Assembly (NCBI GenBank): GCA_021789215.1
Contig: JAJYJS010000004.1
Coordinates: forward strand, 62,001-126,000
Source of the DNA: Nitrospirota bacterium
GTDB taxonomy: Bacteria; Nitrospirota; Thermodesulfovibrionia; Thermodesulfovibrionales; JdFR-88
Reading direction: 5' to 3'
Length of the DNA: 64,000 nt
How positions within the stretch are numbered: the stretch's first letter is position 1; each line of letters starts with the position of its first letter. The translations under genes were made by a program, and so were the position numbers. This document shows positions 26,222-33,368 of the stretch, in pieces. A model generated the notes under the pieces. That model searched no databases. It was not told the DNA's origin and saw nothing but the letters and a program-made list of their open reading frames with translations.

Positions 26222-28138
26222 TTACCTGAACCCCTTTATGGCGGATGCGGCCTCTTCGGGGTCGTGCAGGACGGTCTCCCTGAGGCGCTTGAACCTTATC
26301 ATCTTTTCCTTGTCAAACCCTGCCGATTCCCTTTGAAGCCTCTCAAGCCCCTTCGCGCTTTCATCCGAAAGCCCAAGCATGCGCCTGTATTTGGCCGGGT
26401 CCGTCTTTATGGAAAAATCCCCTGGGGCCTTCCATTTGTCCCTGAAGTAAAGCCATGACGCGAAATCGCCTATCTTGTAACCGTCAAGCAGTTTTATCGG
26501 GGTTGTATTATGGAGCCCCTCTATCCTGAGCCCTTTTGCATCGGCCACTATCCTGTGTGTGCCATTAAACGGCTCCGCGCCCTGATTGTCCATGAACTGC
26601 CACGTGGACACCGACACCTGGCTCTTTCCTCCGTGGCAGCTCTTGCAGCTCCTGGCCTTGCCGAAGGGATGCGCCGCCTGTTCTATCTCAAGCCAGAGCA
26701 GGTGCTTGTTGTCACTGGGCGTGTTGTCTATGGTGCCCACTATGTAATAGGCGTCCCTGGTCTGCCCGTCCGGCCAGCGGAACATGATTCCAGGCGAAGA
26801 AGGGACGTCTTTCCTGAAATTCGAAAGGCTGTGCGGCCATATCTTGACCGGCATCCACTGCCCCTTCTGGTCTTTCATGATGATGGGCGGGCTTTGAATG
26901 CCGTAATAAAGCGAATACTTATTGAACGGGTTGGGTTTCTCAGCAACGTAGCCCGGCCCCCAAATGGTGAGCTGGTAGCCTCTCAACTGGGTGATATGGC
27001 AGGCCGCGCAGTCCAGTTTCCTGTGGACGCTCCTTGCGAGCGCGTCCTCGGCCTCTATGTGGCAGTCCTGGCAGGTGGCCTTCCGCATCATGTCTCCCAT
27101 GCCAGCCGGGCCCTGGAGGTGGCAGTCCACGCAGAGGATGCCCTTTTTGTAATGCACGTCCGGTTTCATGCCCTCCGGGATGGAGTAGTCGCCACCGATG
27201 TATGTCTCCCCCCTTCTGCTCTGCATGGCCCCCGGATGGCAGATGCTCGTGCCCCTGCCGTAGCCTCCGCACGATTCGGGGAGCGGCCGCCTCACGAAGC
27301 GGTGGGCACCCAGCTTCCTGTCCGGCGCGTAGTGGCAGTCCAGGCAGCCCGCGTGGCAGATATTGCAGAACTTCTGTTTGTCTTCGGCCTGCGCCTTTGA
27401 AAAAGGGACATTTACCTCGTCCATTATCTTTCTGGTGTTACTGTAATCAAATCCGGCGCTGTCAAGCTCCCTGGTGGCTGGAAGGTCGGCGAATGACGGG
27501 CCGCAGTTGTGCGGGCCATAGGGCCGAAGCCAGGTCTTCATTGTGCGCTGCCGGAAGTTCCTGCCCATTATGCTGGTCCTGAACTGCGCCAGTTCCTGAG
27601 GGTGGCAGTCCGGCTTGCCGCATGTCTTTGCCGCAATAGCGGGGTCGAAATTGAAGGTCCTGGGGTTCCTGTCCTGCCACAGGAGGTTCCTCACCTCTGG
27701 CAGGACGTATCCGTCTGGCCCCTTTGGGAGCATCTCCCGTATATGGTCGCTGCCGGTTGGGACAAGCGCCTTCTTGTAAAGCGCGGCACGGTTCAGCACC
27801 TCTCCGGCCTCGCTGATGAACATCGCCTTGAGCATCCCCTTATGCGCCTCGTCTGGGTCTTTCGCCCTCCCGTTTCCCAGATGGCAGTCCCGGCAGGTCA
27901 CGTTAGGGTGGTTGCTCTCCTTCTCCACCATCCCGGGAGTGACATAAAGCTCCGGGTAGCCCAGCCTGGCGAGCTTTTCCCTGTCTCCGTGGCAGGCGAC
28001 GCATTCCGCGCTTGAATCAAGCCACGCCCTGTAAGCCAGCAAGGGGACAACGATAAGGAATTGGCATAAAACGATAACCAGGAACGTTTTGCTTGTAAAA
28101 ATACGTTCCAGAGGACCAGTGCCGGATAACTTTCGCAT
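26222..28138 (-). CDS. Membrane-anchored multihaem c-type cytochrome
   Basis: 638 aa; eight CxxCH (CVACH, CRDCH, CNICH, CLDCH, CVDCH, CQDCH, CAACH, CKSCH) plus possible non-canonical motifs; N-terminal TM. Confidence 0.85.
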   Translation of the reverse strand: MRKLSGTGPLERIFTSKTFLVIVLCQFLIVVPLLAYRAWLDSSAECVACHGDREKLARLGYPELYVTPGMVEKESNHPNVTCRDCHLGNGRAKDPDEAHKGMLKAMFISEAGEVLNRAALYKKALVPTGSDHIREMLPKGPDGYVLPEVRNLLWQDRNPRTFNFDPAIAAKTCGKPDCHPQELAQFRTSIMGRNFRQRTMKTWLRPYGPHNCGPSFADLPATRELDSAGFDYSNTRKIMDEVNVPFSKAQAEDKQKFCNICHAGCLDCHYAPDRKLGAHRFVRRPLPESCGGYGRGTSICHPGAMQSRRGETYIGGDYSIPEGMKPDVHYKKGILCVDCHLQGPAGMGDMMRKATCQDCHIEAEDALARSVHRKLDCAACHITQLRGYQLTIWGPGYVAEKPNPFNKYSLYYGIQSPPIIMKDQKGQWMPVKIWPHSLSNFRKDVPSSPGIMFRWPDGQTRDAYYIVGTIDNTPSDNKHLLWLEIEQAAHPFGKARSCKSCHGGKSQVSVSTWQFMDNQGAEPFNGTHRIVADAKGLRIEGLHNTTPIKLLDGYKIGDFASWLYFRDKWKAPGDFSIKTDPAKYRRMLGLSDESAKGLERLQRESAGFDKEKMIRFKRLRETVLHDPEEAASAIKGFR

Positions 28139-28274
28139 AAGGTTTATTTAACCATAAACGCCCGGACCTGGACAAATCCGGGGCTTTGTTGCCCAACCCC
28201 CCTTTTTAATCTACAATTTGCTTAACCGGCGGCATCTTTACGCTTTTTTTTCAATGCGAAAACGGGAGGGGACG

Positions 28275-30887
28275 ATGGGAAAATTTTTCTTCTCGGGAAA
28301 GAAAAAAAACCTGTTTTGTTTCATTTTTCTGGTTTTCATATCGCTTTCCGGCGCGGCATATCTTCTGGTCAAGAACCTGTCTCATCTCAATTTGAAGGGC
28401 CGGCCCCTGGAGCGGCAGAAGGCACAAGCGCCCACAAAAGCGGTTTTTTCACCGGCAGGGTTTTTCTTCACGGGTTTTGAGCCCAATATGGGTCAGACCG
28501 TCCAGCCGGTAAAATTTCTGATGAGGGGGAACGGCTATAACCTGTTCCTGACCCCTGACGAGGCGGTGTTCGCCTTCTTTAAAAAAACGAAAGCAGGACG
28601 GGTTTTTCCCGGCTCCGGCGTCATCCGGATGAGCTTCGAGGGGGCGAAAAAAAAGGCAAGTATCGCGGGAGCAGGCGAACTCTCCGGGAAAACCAGTTAC
28701 TTCATTGGAAGGGACAAGGAGAAATGGCTCTCCGGCATACCGCTCTTTTCGGATGTGGTTTACAACGGCATTTACCGGGATATCGACCTTGTCTTTCATT
28801 CGGGCAAAAAAAGGCTTGAATACGACTTCGTGGTCCATCCGGGGGCAGATCCGGGGGACATCGCGCTCCGGCTTGAAGGCGCAAAGGCCGTAAACATGGA
28901 CGGGAAAGGCGACCTGGCCATCTCCGGCAGCGCCGGGGAAAAAATGGTCTTTATCAAGCCGGAGGTGTATGAGGAGGCCCGCGGCGTCAAAAAGAAGGTA
29001 GAGGGACATTTTATTATTGAAGGAGATACAATCGGCTTCAGGGTGGCGGGCTATGACCGCAGGAAAACGCTGGTAATAGACCCCTCCATCGCCTACTCCA
29101 CCTTCCTTGGCGGCAGCCAGAACGACGAGGGGCACGGGATAAGGGTGGACGCGCAGGGGAACGTCTTTGTAACGGGGTTCACGATGTCGCCCGATTTCCC
29201 CACGAAGGCCCCGGAGCAGCCGGTGTGGGGCGGGGGGACTTCCACCGGGGACGTGTTTGTCACAAAACTTAACACGGCTGGAAACGCATTGATTTACTCC
29301 ACCTTCATTGGCGGAGCGTCCGATGACGCGGGCAAGGCGATTGAGATAGACCCTGCCGGAGAAGCATATATAACCGGGGTTACAGCCTCCAGCAATTTCC
29401 CCGTGCTCACCCCGTTCCAGGGCACGCTCAAAGGGGCGAGCAACGCCTTTATCGTAAAGCTCTCGGCAAGCGGCACACAGCTTTTGTATGCAAGTTATCT
29501 GGGCGGCGGGAGCACCGACGAAGGGGAAGACATTGCGCTGGACCCCTCCGGCAATATCTATATAACAGGTTTCACCAGTTCAGCCGATTTCCCCCTGCTC
29601 AAGCCTGTAAAGGCCAGTATAGGCGGGGCTTACGACGCATTCATAACGAAGCTGGACCCCACCGGGCGCAAGCTCATCTACTCGACCTTTCTTGGCGGCG
29701 GCAGCAATGACGAAGGCATGGGCATAAAGGCTGACGCAAACGGCGATGCCTATGTTACAGGTGCGACGGCATCCAGCGATTTCATGACCGTAAATCCGGA
29801 GCAGGCCAGTTTAGCCGGGAGCACGAACGCCTTCCTGTCCAAGTTCGACCCGAACGGCGTGCTCTTGTTTTCCACTTATCACGGGGGGGCGGCAGCAGAC
29901 GCCGGGACGGCCATTGCCCTGGATTCAAGCGAAAACGCGTATATAACCGGAAGCACCACCTCTCCGGATTTCCCTGTGCTGGGCCCGGTACGGTCTTACA
30001 GCGGCGCAAACGACGCCTTCGTAAGCAAATTCAGCCCGCAAGGCCGGATAATCTACTCCACATTTCTGGGCGGGAGCGCTGACGACTTCGGATACGGCAT
30101 AGCGGTCGACATCTTCGGAAACACCTACGTGGCGGGACAGACGATTTCTTCGGACTTTCCGTTAGTCAACCCCGTCCAGACGCTGAAGCCTGGCCAAAAC
30201 GCATTCCTGACCGAAATAAACTCAACCGGAACGGCCTTCGTATTCTCCACATTCCTGGGCGGAGGCGGCAACGACGCCGGGTTCGCGGTCATAACGGACG
30301 GATCCGGCTCGGCCTATCTCACCGGACGGACGAATTCACCCGATTTCGCCACCGTCAATTCCATCCAGCCCTATACCGGCGGATATGACGCATTTGTTGC
30401 AAAGATCCGGAGCGCGGCAAACCAGCCCCCCTCGCCTCCGGTGCTTGTAAGCCCGGCAAGCGGCCAGACCGGGGTTGACACGACCGTGACATTCACATGG
30501 GAAAAATCGACCGACCCCGATGGAGACCCCGTGACCTATAACTTCTTCCTCTGCACAAACCCGGACTTTACGGGCTGTTCCCCCTCCGTAGTCTCAAAAA
30601 ACGGCAATGGAGGAAAAATCAGGCTTGCCTCCGTGTTATTATTAAGCATGCCGGTTGCGGGCATATTCTGGGGGAGGAAGAAGAAAAAGGCCTTGTCCTT
30701 CATCGCTCTGGCCGCTTTAGTCGTAGTGGCGGCATCATGCGGCGGAGGGCAAAAAGCCCCGCCCAACCAGGTACAGATAAAGATTACAGGGCTTGCCCAT
30801 AACACAACCTATTACTGGAAGGTTGTGGCCCTGGACGGGAAAGGAGGCTCCGCACAGAGCGAGACCCGCTCTTTCACGACCGGATGA
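28275..30887 (+). CDS. SBBP-repeat beta-propeller secreted protein with interrupted C-terminal Fn3-like domain
   Basis: Repeated YSTFLGG(S/G)..D.G...ITG.T.S.DFP units; signal peptide; ATG at 28275 preceded by GGGAGGGG. Confidence 0.85.
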   Translation: MGKFFFSGKKKNLFCFIFLVFISLSGAAYLLVKNLSHLNLKGRPLERQKAQAPTKAVFSPAGFFFTGFEPNMGQTVQPVKFLMRGNGYNLFLTPDEAVFAFFKKTKAGRVFPGSGVIRMSFEGAKKKASIAGAGELSGKTSYFIGRDKEKWLSGIPLFSDVVYNGIYRDIDLVFHSGKKRLEYDFVVHPGADPGDIALRLEGAKAVNMDGKGDLAISGSAGEKMVFIKPEVYEEARGVKKKVEGHFIIEGDTIGFRVAGYDRRKTLVIDPSIAYSTFLGGSQNDEGHGIRVDAQGNVFVTGFTMSPDFPTKAPEQPVWGGGTSTGDVFVTKLNTAGNALIYSTFIGGASDDAGKAIEIDPAGEAYITGVTASSNFPVLTPFQGTLKGASNAFIVKLSASGTQLLYASYLGGGSTDEGEDIALDPSGNIYITGFTSSADFPLLKPVKASIGGAYDAFITKLDPTGRKLIYSTFLGGGSNDEGMGIKADANGDAYVTGATASSDFMTVNPEQASLAGSTNAFLSKFDPNGVLLFSTYHGGAAADAGTAIALDSSENAYITGSTTSPDFPVLGPVRSYSGANDAFVSKFSPQGRIIYSTFLGGSADDFGYGIAVDIFGNTYVAGQTISSDFPLVNPVQTLKPGQNAFLTEINSTGTAFVFSTFLGGGGNDAGFAVITDGSGSAYLTGRTNSPDFATVNSIQPYTGGYDAFVAKIRSAANQPPSPPVLVSPASGQTGVDTTVTFTWEKSTDPDGDPVTYNFFLCTNPDFTGCSPSVVSKNGNGGKIRLASVLLLSMPVAGIFWGRKKKKALSFIALAALVVVAASCGGGQKAPPNQVQIKITGLAHNTTYYWKVVALDGKGGSAQSETRSFTTG

Positions 30888-31549
30888 ACCTTGAGCTTAC
30901 ACTTCTGATACTGGAGTCCGTCCTGCTTGCGTTCACGGTGGTGCTGCTCCTTTTCAGCATCAGGGAGGGCAGGAGCCGGGAAAAGCTGATACGAGGGGTG
31001 GACAAGGCCGCGAAAACGTTTACCCGGCTGGAGTATTTCCTTGCCGTAGTCGATTCCATGTCAGATGCCAAGGTTGAGATTGCCGGGCTTATAACTGGCA
31101 GGCCGCCCTCCGGGAGCGATATAAAAAGGTCGCGGGACATAATCGATGCTATAGAGAAAATGAGCAAGTCTCAGGTGCGGATAAGATACCTTCTTCCCCA
31201 GTTCCACGACAGGCTGCACATAGGATATCTGTACTCGAAAGCCGGGGCCCAGATAAGGTTCAGCACATGCCCCATCCTGCACGACCTGCGCTATATGACC
31301 GTGGATGAAGGGGTCACCATCATCGGCATACCGGAGAGCGTCGGGCAAAAGGAAGCCACAAAGAAGGGCTACAAAATAGCTTCCGAGGGGCTCAATTCCA
31401 TCCTGAAGGAGCACTTCGAGTCCTGCTGGGCGGCAGCGGTGCCCTTTGAGGAATACCTGAAAGAGGTCATAAGCCAGACAAAAGCGACCGCCAGGCATCT
31501 TTCAAAGGAGCTCAATATAGACGAGGCCGAGCTTGAGCGGTTTTATTGA
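30884..31549 (+). CDS. Hypothetical membrane-anchored protein
   Basis: 221 aa ORF with N-terminal TM, overlaps upstream stop by 4 nt. Confidence 0.6.
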   Translation: MNLELTLLILESVLLAFTVVLLLFSIREGRSREKLIRGVDKAAKTFTRLEYFLAVVDSMSDAKVEIAGLITGRPPSGSDIKRSRDIIDAIEKMSKSQVRIRYLLPQFHDRLHIGYLYSKAGAQIRFSTCPILHDLRYMTVDEGVTIIGIPESVGQKEATKKGYKIASEGLNSILKEHFESCWAAAVPFEEYLKEVISQTKATARHLSKELNIDEAELERFY

Positions 31550-31866: not shown

Positions 31867-32190
31867 ATGTCATGGGAGCTTATAGAACTGCCTCCCTTTG
31901 CAGAGCTTAGGGATAAGTTGTTTTCTGATGAGGAGTTTCGGGATTTACAGATATTTTTGATCGATCAACCCAAAGCGGGCGACGTTATCCCTGAAACGGG
32001 TGGCTGCCGTAAGTTGCGTTGGGCAGCTAAAGGGAAAGGTAAGCGTGGCGGTGCGCGAGTGATCTATTTTCTCCGTATGACGGATGATCAGATTGTGCTG
32101 GTCGCCGCATACGGTAAAGGAGAACGGGACGACGTGCCGCGAGCATGGCTTAAACGAATCAAGGAGGTATTTGAACATGAGCAGAGCTAA
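31867..32190 (+). CDS. RelE/HigB-type toxin
   Basis: 107 aa; CRKLRWAAKGKGKRGGARVIYFLRMTDDQIVLVAAYGKGERDDV. Confidence 0.85.
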   Translation: MSWELIELPPFAELRDKLFSDEEFRDLQIFLIDQPKAGDVIPETGGCRKLRWAAKGKGKRGGARVIYFLRMTDDQIVLVAAYGKGERDDVPRAWLKRIKEVFEHEQS

Positions 32191-32533
32191 AGAATCAGTC
32201 CGCCGCCTCATGGAAACTATAGATAAGGGCGGCAAAGTCGAATGGGCCCGTAAAACCCGGTTTATTCCGCAGCGCGACGGATCGCTCCGGCGGCTGGTAC
32301 AGCGCAAGGATGGAACTGTGGAGAAAGACGAGATCATTTCCGAAGATCGTATGCTGGTGGCCGAAGCCCGCGCAAAGACTGGCCTGTCCCAGGATAAATT
32401 CGCGGCGCTGCTCGGAATTTCCGCACGCACCCTCCGCGATTGGGAGCAAGGCCGTAGAACACCTTCGGGAGCCGCCAAAACACTTCTCCAAATAGCGGCG
32501 AAACATCCCGACGTGCTTCAGGAAGTGGTCTGA
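32177..32533 (+). CDS. XRE/HigA-type antitoxin
   Basis: MSRAKESVRRLMETIDKGG...LVAEARAKTGLSQDKFAALLGISARTLRDWEQGRRTPSGAAKTLLQIA; overlaps toxin end. Confidence 0.85.
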   Translation: MSRAKESVRRLMETIDKGGKVEWARKTRFIPQRDGSLRRLVQRKDGTVEKDEIISEDRMLVAEARAKTGLSQDKFAALLGISARTLRDWEQGRRTPSGAAKTLLQIAAKHPDVLQEVV

Positions 32534-32616: not shown

Positions 32617-32657
32617 TTGACTCGAGAGACATTTGTGTACATAATAAAGTATACAAA
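32617..32657 (+). promoter_or_regulatory. Promoter/operator of second TA module
   Basis: TTGACT (32617)-17-CATAAT (32640) overlapped by palindrome TTTGTGTAC-N8-GTATACAAA. Confidence 0.65.
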
Positions 32658-32670
32658 GGAGGACACGATT

Positions 32671-32958
32671 ATGAAATTTCTGAGCGTTCGGGACCTGAGG
32701 GGCAAGTCCGCCCAGGTCTGGAAAGAGCTTCCCAAGGAGAGGGAGATGATAGTTACTAGCAACGGGCGGCCAATCGCAATCCTTGCGGCGATAAACGAAT
32801 CGAACATTGAAGAATCTCTGGCGGCCTTCCGGCAGGCACGCGCGGCCGAAGCGGTCTTGTCGCTCCAGCGCGGCTCCGTGGCGCGCGGAAAAGACAAACT
32901 GACGATGGAGGACATAGACGCCCAAATCAAGGCCGTCCGCAAGCAGCGGAACCGATGA
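32671..32958 (+). CDS. Phd/YefM-type antitoxin
   Basis: MKFLSVRDLRGKSAQVWKELPKEREMIVTSNGRPIAILAAI. Confidence 0.85.
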   Translation: MKFLSVRDLRGKSAQVWKELPKEREMIVTSNGRPIAILAAINESNIEESLAAFRQARAAEAVLSLQRGSVARGKDKLTMEDIDAQIKAVRKQRNR

Positions 32959-33368
32959 ATATCGTCCTGGACACCAATGTCCTTGTTGCCGGCCTTCTGT
33001 CTCCCTTTGGCGCCTGCGGCGAGATCGTCCGCATGGTTTCCTCGGGCAAGCTGACACTCTCTTTCGACGCCAGAATTCTTGCCGAGTATGACGAGGTCTT
33101 GCGACGGCCCTGGTTCGGGTTTGAGGAGGAAAAGGTGGCGGCGCTTATGGAATACATTGTCCACAGCGGGAAGGCGGCAGCGTCGCTGCCCTGCGCGGAC
33201 CCACTGCCGGATGCCGATGATATGCCGTTCCTTGAGGCTGCCACGGCCAATAAAGCGGCATGCATAGTTACCGGAAATCAAAAACATTTTCCGGCTGGCC
33301 TGTGCCAGGGCGTTAAGGTTTTTTCTCCGAAGGAATTTCTTGTGTTTTACAAAAAACAAAAGCAATAA
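32955..33368 (+). CDS. PIN-domain toxin
   Basis: 137 aa; MNIVLDTNVLVAGLLSPFG...DPLPDADDMPFLEAATANKAACIVTGNQKHF; 4 nt overlap with antitoxin. Confidence 0.9.
   Translation: MNIVLDTNVLVAGLLSPFGACGEIVRMVSSGKLTLSFDARILAEYDEVLRRPWFGFEEEKVAALMEYIVHSGKAAASLPCADPLPDADDMPFLEAATANKAACIVTGNQKHFPAGLCQGVKVFSPKEFLVFYKKQKQ

Follow-up and report, generated by a model that had tools for sequence, protein, structure and literature searches.

A lipoprotein-type signal within a membrane hairpin interrupts the C-terminal Fn3-like domain of secreted Nitrospirota proteins and may act as a split-domain lipid anchor

The window, a stretch of 64,000 nucleotides from a Nitrospirota bacterium, carries on its forward strand a gene (28218..30887) for an SBBP beta-propeller protein of 889 residues, in which a C-terminal Fn3-like domain is interrupted by an inserted cassette. 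The gene start is the TTG chosen by ORF calling, for which the ATG codons at 28254 or 28275 are alternatives. Pfam assigns a DUF7948 domain to residues 87-289 (E 1e-56) and SBBP repeats to seven stretches (E 8.7e-41). A hydrophobic N-terminus, MGKFFFSGKKKNLFCFIFLVFISLSGAAYLLV (28275..28370, +), read from the translation, is a putative signal peptide or anchor; it would be expected to serve as a Sec export signal and to place the propeller side outside the inner membrane.

The divergent neighbour at 26222-28138 (-) encodes a protein of 638 residues in which CxxCH-like motifs are numerous; it is probably a multiheme cytochrome c anchored in the membrane. On the other side lies a 221-residue ORF at 30884-31549 (+), the ATG of which overlaps the stop codon of the propeller gene (ATGA), and whose product has an N-terminal transmembrane segment and no Pfam match. 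This ORF also adjoins the cassette gene in relatives of the same family (L004-L012 and L014; 59-68% identity), and the two are possibly coupled in function. Further along the same strand, the ORF translations contain two toxin-antitoxin-like pairs, a RelE/HigB-like protein with an HTH partner at 31867-32533 (+) and a Phd-like antitoxin with a PIN-domain (VapC-like) toxin at 32617-33368 (+).

The Fn3-like domain is encoded in two parts, a front half with strands A, B, C, and C' (30420..30602, +) and a back half with strands E, F, and G (30768..30884, +), and by strand order the intervening cassette of 55 residues (30603..30767, +) occupies the C'-E loop. The reading frame stays open across it, with neither a stop codon nor a frameshift, and its translation is identical to the residues given in the original prediction. 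When the intact protein is compared with the Pfam fn3 profile, only the second half of the domain is recognized (profile 44-82, 17.6 bits), whereas the flanks joined without the insert reach 29.8 bits against a cut-off of 25 and cover positions 13-82 of 84. The joined flanks also match solved Fn3 structures end to end, among them neogenin, so that both sequence and fold are continuous once the insert is skipped. The original prediction of an insert inside an Fn3-like domain was therefore correct to the coordinate.

The same picture is given by AlphaFold2, run with the insert present on a 31-sequence alignment. The Fn3 is built around the insert, with strands at residues 11-14, 19-22, 26-31, 42-48, and 59-61 of the front half and 120-125, 133-141, 147-149, and 153-157 of the back half; pLDDT is about 90-98 for the strands at 11-61 and 120-157, while nearly all insert residues from 66 to 111 fall below 50. 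The top solved matches of the model in Foldseek are Fn3/Ig-like sandwiches. The AlphaFold2 models describe uncut chains and say nothing on the association of cut halves. Fn3 domains without an insert exist in the same order, for example in L166, with LFVTDHTGTNIVTETLQPSKVYYWKIVARD. Within the front half (30540-30590 of the window), and in many of the homologous Fn3 domains, there is a cysteine pair of the form F-x-L-C-T-x-x-x-x-F-x-x-C, which could form a local disulfide.

The cassette reads, in order, GNGGKIR, LASVLLLSMPVAGIFWG, RKKKK, ALSFIALAALVVVAAS, C, and GGGQKAPPN. Its first hydrophobic helix (TM1, LASVLLLSMPVAGIFWG, 30624..30674, +) resembles that of a C-terminal sorting tail and is followed by the basic loop RKKKK (30675..30689, +), which is expected from the positive-inside rule to lie on the cytoplasmic side. 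The second helix (TM2, ALSFIALAALVVVAAS, 30690..30737, +) has the character of a lipoprotein h-region, with 16 residues from the last lysine to the cysteine, and runs into the lipobox A-A-S-C, the cysteine of which (30738..30740, +) is residue 841 of 889. The glycine-rich linker GGGQKAPPN (30741..30767, +) leads back into the domain. The cysteine, the linker, and the back-half strands, 49 residues to the end, are predicted to constitute a lipidated fragment.

The segment recurs in other proteins, and 78 distinct homologous cassettes, mostly from Nitrospirota, were collected for family statistics. The lipobox cysteine is kept in all 78. The residue at -1 is S, A, or G in 77/78 and that at -3 is L, V, I, or F in 68/78; among internal cysteines that follow hydrophobic stretches in other ORFs of the fetched loci, a small control of 16, these proportions are 6/16 and 7/16. 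The last K or R precedes the cysteine by 16-18 residues in 67 of the 78 cassettes, and the residue after the cysteine is G in 62, S in 11, and Asp in only one. The loop between the helices holds 3-6 K/R in 74 of the 75 members scored, and the best 12-residue mean Kyte-Doolittle value of TM1 is at least 1.62, with a median of 2.33. The stretch after the cysteine, mostly 48-72 residues long, nearly always comprises the last Fn3 strands; the strand F signature Y-x-W-x-V is present there in 76/78. Among eight orthologues, the mean pairwise identity is 63% and 58% for the two half-domains and 29% for the stretch between them, up to the cysteine, a pattern in which the stretch varies in its letters but keeps its physical form. 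It had been proposed from the window that a helix and basic cluster like those of a sorting tail lead straight into a signal of the lipoprotein type, all within one unbroken Fn3 domain, and the family bears this out.

One reading of such a cassette would be a mere membrane hairpin of two helices, by which the Fn3 domain, uncut, is anchored in the inner membrane, its cysteine left unprocessed. Two hydrophobic helices and a basic loop suffice for anchoring, and the AlphaFold2 model has the Fn3 folding with the insert as a long loop. Yet a hairpin has no need of an invariant cysteine, a small residue at -1, a fixed spacing of 16-18 residues, or a glycine after the cysteine, and the N-terminal lipoproteins in the fetched loci bear the same kind of signal (for example, ..LSSCGGGGGGS in L231, ..IYACGGGGGG in L232, and LSLSSCGGGGGGS). 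We therefore consider a mere hairpin unlikely, while keeping it as a serious alternative.

Relatives carry full-length homologues, at 58% identity and below, in which the insert keeps its position. They are found in all sampled genomes of the same GTDB family but one (G003), some of them as partial pieces, and also beyond that family, both within the order and in further classes of the phylum; at E <= 1e-15 they were detected in 28 of the 299 genomes of the phylum. Outside Nitrospirota, cassette loci were found in MAGs titled Desulfuromonas, Deltaproteobacteria, Gammaproteobacteria, and Aminicenantes. The genome of the window itself has a second copy (L003, G000:C36:233886-234368), a frame of 847 residues with the cassette in a C-terminal Fn3 that is 36% identical to the domain in the window. 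In two further loci, L158 (G206:C214) and L159 (G255:C5), the Fn3 halves of cassette genes lie in different frames, which are probably draft-genome frameshifts; halves that were truly encoded separately would be informative.

This distribution bears on the suggestion that the cassette is a mobile in-frame insertion, or an assembly or frameshift artefact. The clean restoration of the domain when the insert is removed is what such an origin would leave behind, but homologous inserts stand at the same site in many genera and classes, the ORF is intact, no short duplication flanks the insert, and a paralogue in the same genome carries a cassette too. An artefact is ruled out by the open frame and the same-site inserts of relatives, and the reading as a whole is scarcely credible. 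A loss of Fn3 continuity in homologues, or a frameshift or chimera at 30603-30767, had been named as grounds for abandoning the original prediction, and neither was encountered.

The N-terminal partners of the cassette vary, as expected of an anchor module. They include SBBP propellers, a LamG lectin, a beta-helix, a reprolysin-type metalloprotease, FG-GAP/ASPIC with PKD, rhodanese, HAF repeats, and tandem ASH domains. The host domain itself can also differ: in L090 (G057:C255), a single sequence from one draft genome, the cassette splits an ASH/choice-of-anchor-D domain and not an Fn3. Joining the flanks of L090 extends its match to PF22544 from profile positions 1-76 to 4-99 of 100, and in an alignment with 37 uninterrupted ASH domains both flanks align and the gap coincides exactly with the cassette. 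In the AlphaFold2 model the ASH domain likewise forms around the insert: pLDDT exceeds 90 for the strands that precede residue 80 and for those at 149-158 and 165-173, and is about 45-55 in the insert. The strongest hint that the cassette is there to split a sandwich comes from its placement, directly ahead of the final strands in two unrelated folds, with the ASH case being that one draft-genome sequence. Four more candidates for ASH-hosted cassettes, and one relative, proved on inspection to be either lipoproteins of the N-terminal type or ORFs with no relation to the cassette.

Taken as a whole, we give somewhat better than an even chance to the cassette being a modular C-terminal lipid anchor, in which Lgt and LspA act on the internal lipobox and the lipidated strands are retained non-covalently. 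The protein would be exported by Sec until TM1 stops transfer, the basic loop would remain in the cytoplasm, and TM2 would re-enter the membrane as an internal lipoprotein signal. By analogy with the established action of the two enzymes, of which the genome of this organism encodes one each, Lgt would place a diacylglycerol on the cysteine and signal peptidase II (LspA) would cut before it, severing the chain within the last beta-sandwich domain. The freed piece, composed of the cysteine, the flexible glycine linker, and the last strands, would then be a small lipoprotein that stays lodged among the other strands, in the manner of a split protein, and through half a domain it would hold the N-terminal propeller non-covalently on the membrane. 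The earlier idea that anchoring or cleavage takes place within a domain agrees with what the family shows. The sequences and models establish the architecture, its conservation and modularity, and the continuity of the domain; lipidation, the LspA cut, and the persistence of the split domain are inferred.

The retention of the halves is suggested by the fold. In Fn3 domains, the partners of strands E and F are B and C, respectively, so that the two pieces would interlock in both sheets, and Fn3 fragments have been reported to complement each other in vitro. The C-terminal fragment is free of cysteine in 76/78 members, which excludes a disulfide between the halves in nearly all of them; they could only be held non-covalently. 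Should TM1 remain uncut, the protein would already be anchored by the hairpin and a lipid would appear superfluous, which counts against a lipid anchor. If TM1 were also removed, the complex might travel on from the inner membrane in lipoprotein form, with the outer membrane as one destination; both this removal and the delivery are speculative. Under the Lol rule of E. coli, Asp after the lipidated cysteine leads to inner-membrane retention, and its occurrence in 1/78 cassettes would predict no such retention, with the caveat that the rule is that of E. coli and may not hold here.

C-terminal sorting tails are removed by intramembrane proteases. A search for a dedicated processing partner of the cassette among CPBP proteases and rhomboids found none, a point against the lipid anchor: CPBP proteases are patchy, and their absence from the carriers G005, G008, G010, and G027 speaks against them in this role. 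Rhomboids are nearly universal in the order (129/151 genomes) and thus uninformative; the genome of the window has one.

The resemblance of TM1 and its basic cluster to such tails could also mean that the chain is cut at both sites into two independent products, a tail-processed propeller, released or lipid-linked, and a separate lipidated C-terminal fragment. In Vibrio cholerae, a similar helix-plus-basic tail is cleaved by rhombosortase and, inefficiently, by GlpG (PMC6219818), and the genome of the window has one rhomboid. Against two products speak the shortness of the C-terminal piece and its content: instead of a product in its own right, as had been foreseen, it is nearly always the last strands of the split domain. 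The front and back halves are, moreover, about equally conserved, which makes little sense if they part, and the GG of the window ahead of TM1 is found in only 20/78 cassettes. This reading is accordingly judged rather improbable.

A further possibility is that the tail works as a switch for maturation or release, the LspA cut freeing or re-arranging the protein, for example in force-dependent shedding, instead of anchoring it. It draws on the same data as the lipid anchor, and a split, non-covalent beta-sandwich is reminiscent of GAIN, SEA, and SEAL domains. No positive sign of signalling or shedding was seen, and the passengers are of many kinds, for the most part extracellular domains with binding, repeat, or enzyme character; we hold such a switch to be very improbable.

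The lipid anchor may also be an instance of a more general principle, by which the ordinary bacterial lipoprotein pathway acts on a C-terminal beta-sandwich from the inside, cutting off and lipidating its last strands, and the whole secreted protein is kept on the membrane through strand complementation, in at least two unrelated folds (Fn3 and ASH/choice-of-anchor D) and with many passengers; we would stop just short of calling this probable. If true, it would mean that a protein can be anchored by this pathway at its C-terminal end, through a cut in a folded domain whose fragments then complement each other. It would account for the many secreted Nitrospirota proteins that, with varied passengers, end in an Fn3 with an internal membrane hairpin. 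Automatic topology and localization calls would fail for the cassette family, and a split-domain lipid anchor would suggest itself for protein engineering.

This kind of region has already been noticed by the curators of NCBIfam, release 20.0 of which contains NF058595, 'invert_tail', a 'lipo-invert putative C-terminal anchoring domain'. The copy in the window scores 23 bits (E 7.8e-5), below the curated cut-off of 37 bits, and this score alone is weak, since sub-threshold matches also occur in 5/14 control genomes. The model matches 30 of 31 aligned cassettes at E <= 0.01, and some members surpass the cut-off, among them a homologue that is 48% identical from end to end (G027:C32) and reaches 37.7 bits; through cassette and host domain, the window is homologous to members of NF058595. 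The model covers the same protein region and, as far as its name tells, which is all that was compared, it too posits a putative C-terminal anchor. A literature search for 'lipo-invert' and 'internal lipobox' returned no paper, and one for internal lipoprotein signals returned nothing relevant. Beyond what the name of that model says, the new elements are the reading as a split domain, the constant geometry of the cassette, and a second kind of host domain. The original prediction had overlooked both that second type of host and the existence of a widespread modular C-terminal anchor modelled in NCBIfam.

Bacterial lipoproteins are understood as N-terminally lipidated. The cassette shares with an ordinary lipoprotein signal the basic n-region, the h-region of 16-18 residues, the lipobox [LVIF]-x-[SAG]-C, the glycine-rich tether, and the rarity of Asp after the cysteine. 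Both the window and the family thus have the lipobox cysteine, n-region, and h-region of a bacterial lipoprotein, but not its N-terminal location: the signal stands near the C-terminus, after another transmembrane helix and a whole exported protein. Unlike in an ordinary Lgt/LspA substrate, the signal helix is joined through a cytoplasmic loop to the preceding transmembrane helix, a form that Lgt and LspA may not accept, which counts against processing.

Another group of known systems, the GlyGly-CTERM, MYXO-CTERM, JDVT-CTERM, and similar sorting tails of exported proteins, likewise has a hydrophobic helix and then a basic cluster close to the C-terminus; one family member weakly matches JDVT-CTERM. 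These tails end the protein, whereas proteins with the cassette continue for 60 or more residues (in the window, 60 past the basic loop); neither GG nor Cys before TM1 is conserved, and no linked protease was found. GlyGly-CTERM, the tail type first proposed, is not supported, given a GG before TM1 in so few members, a [YFH]-A-small motif in 51/78, and a position away from the extreme C-terminus. Closest to the proposed outcome are the GAIN/GPS, SEA, and RsgI SEAL domains, in which a beta-rich domain is self-cleaved between strands and the pieces remain together. Those domains cut themselves, whereas in the cassette LspA would do the cutting, with a lipid anchor as the result.
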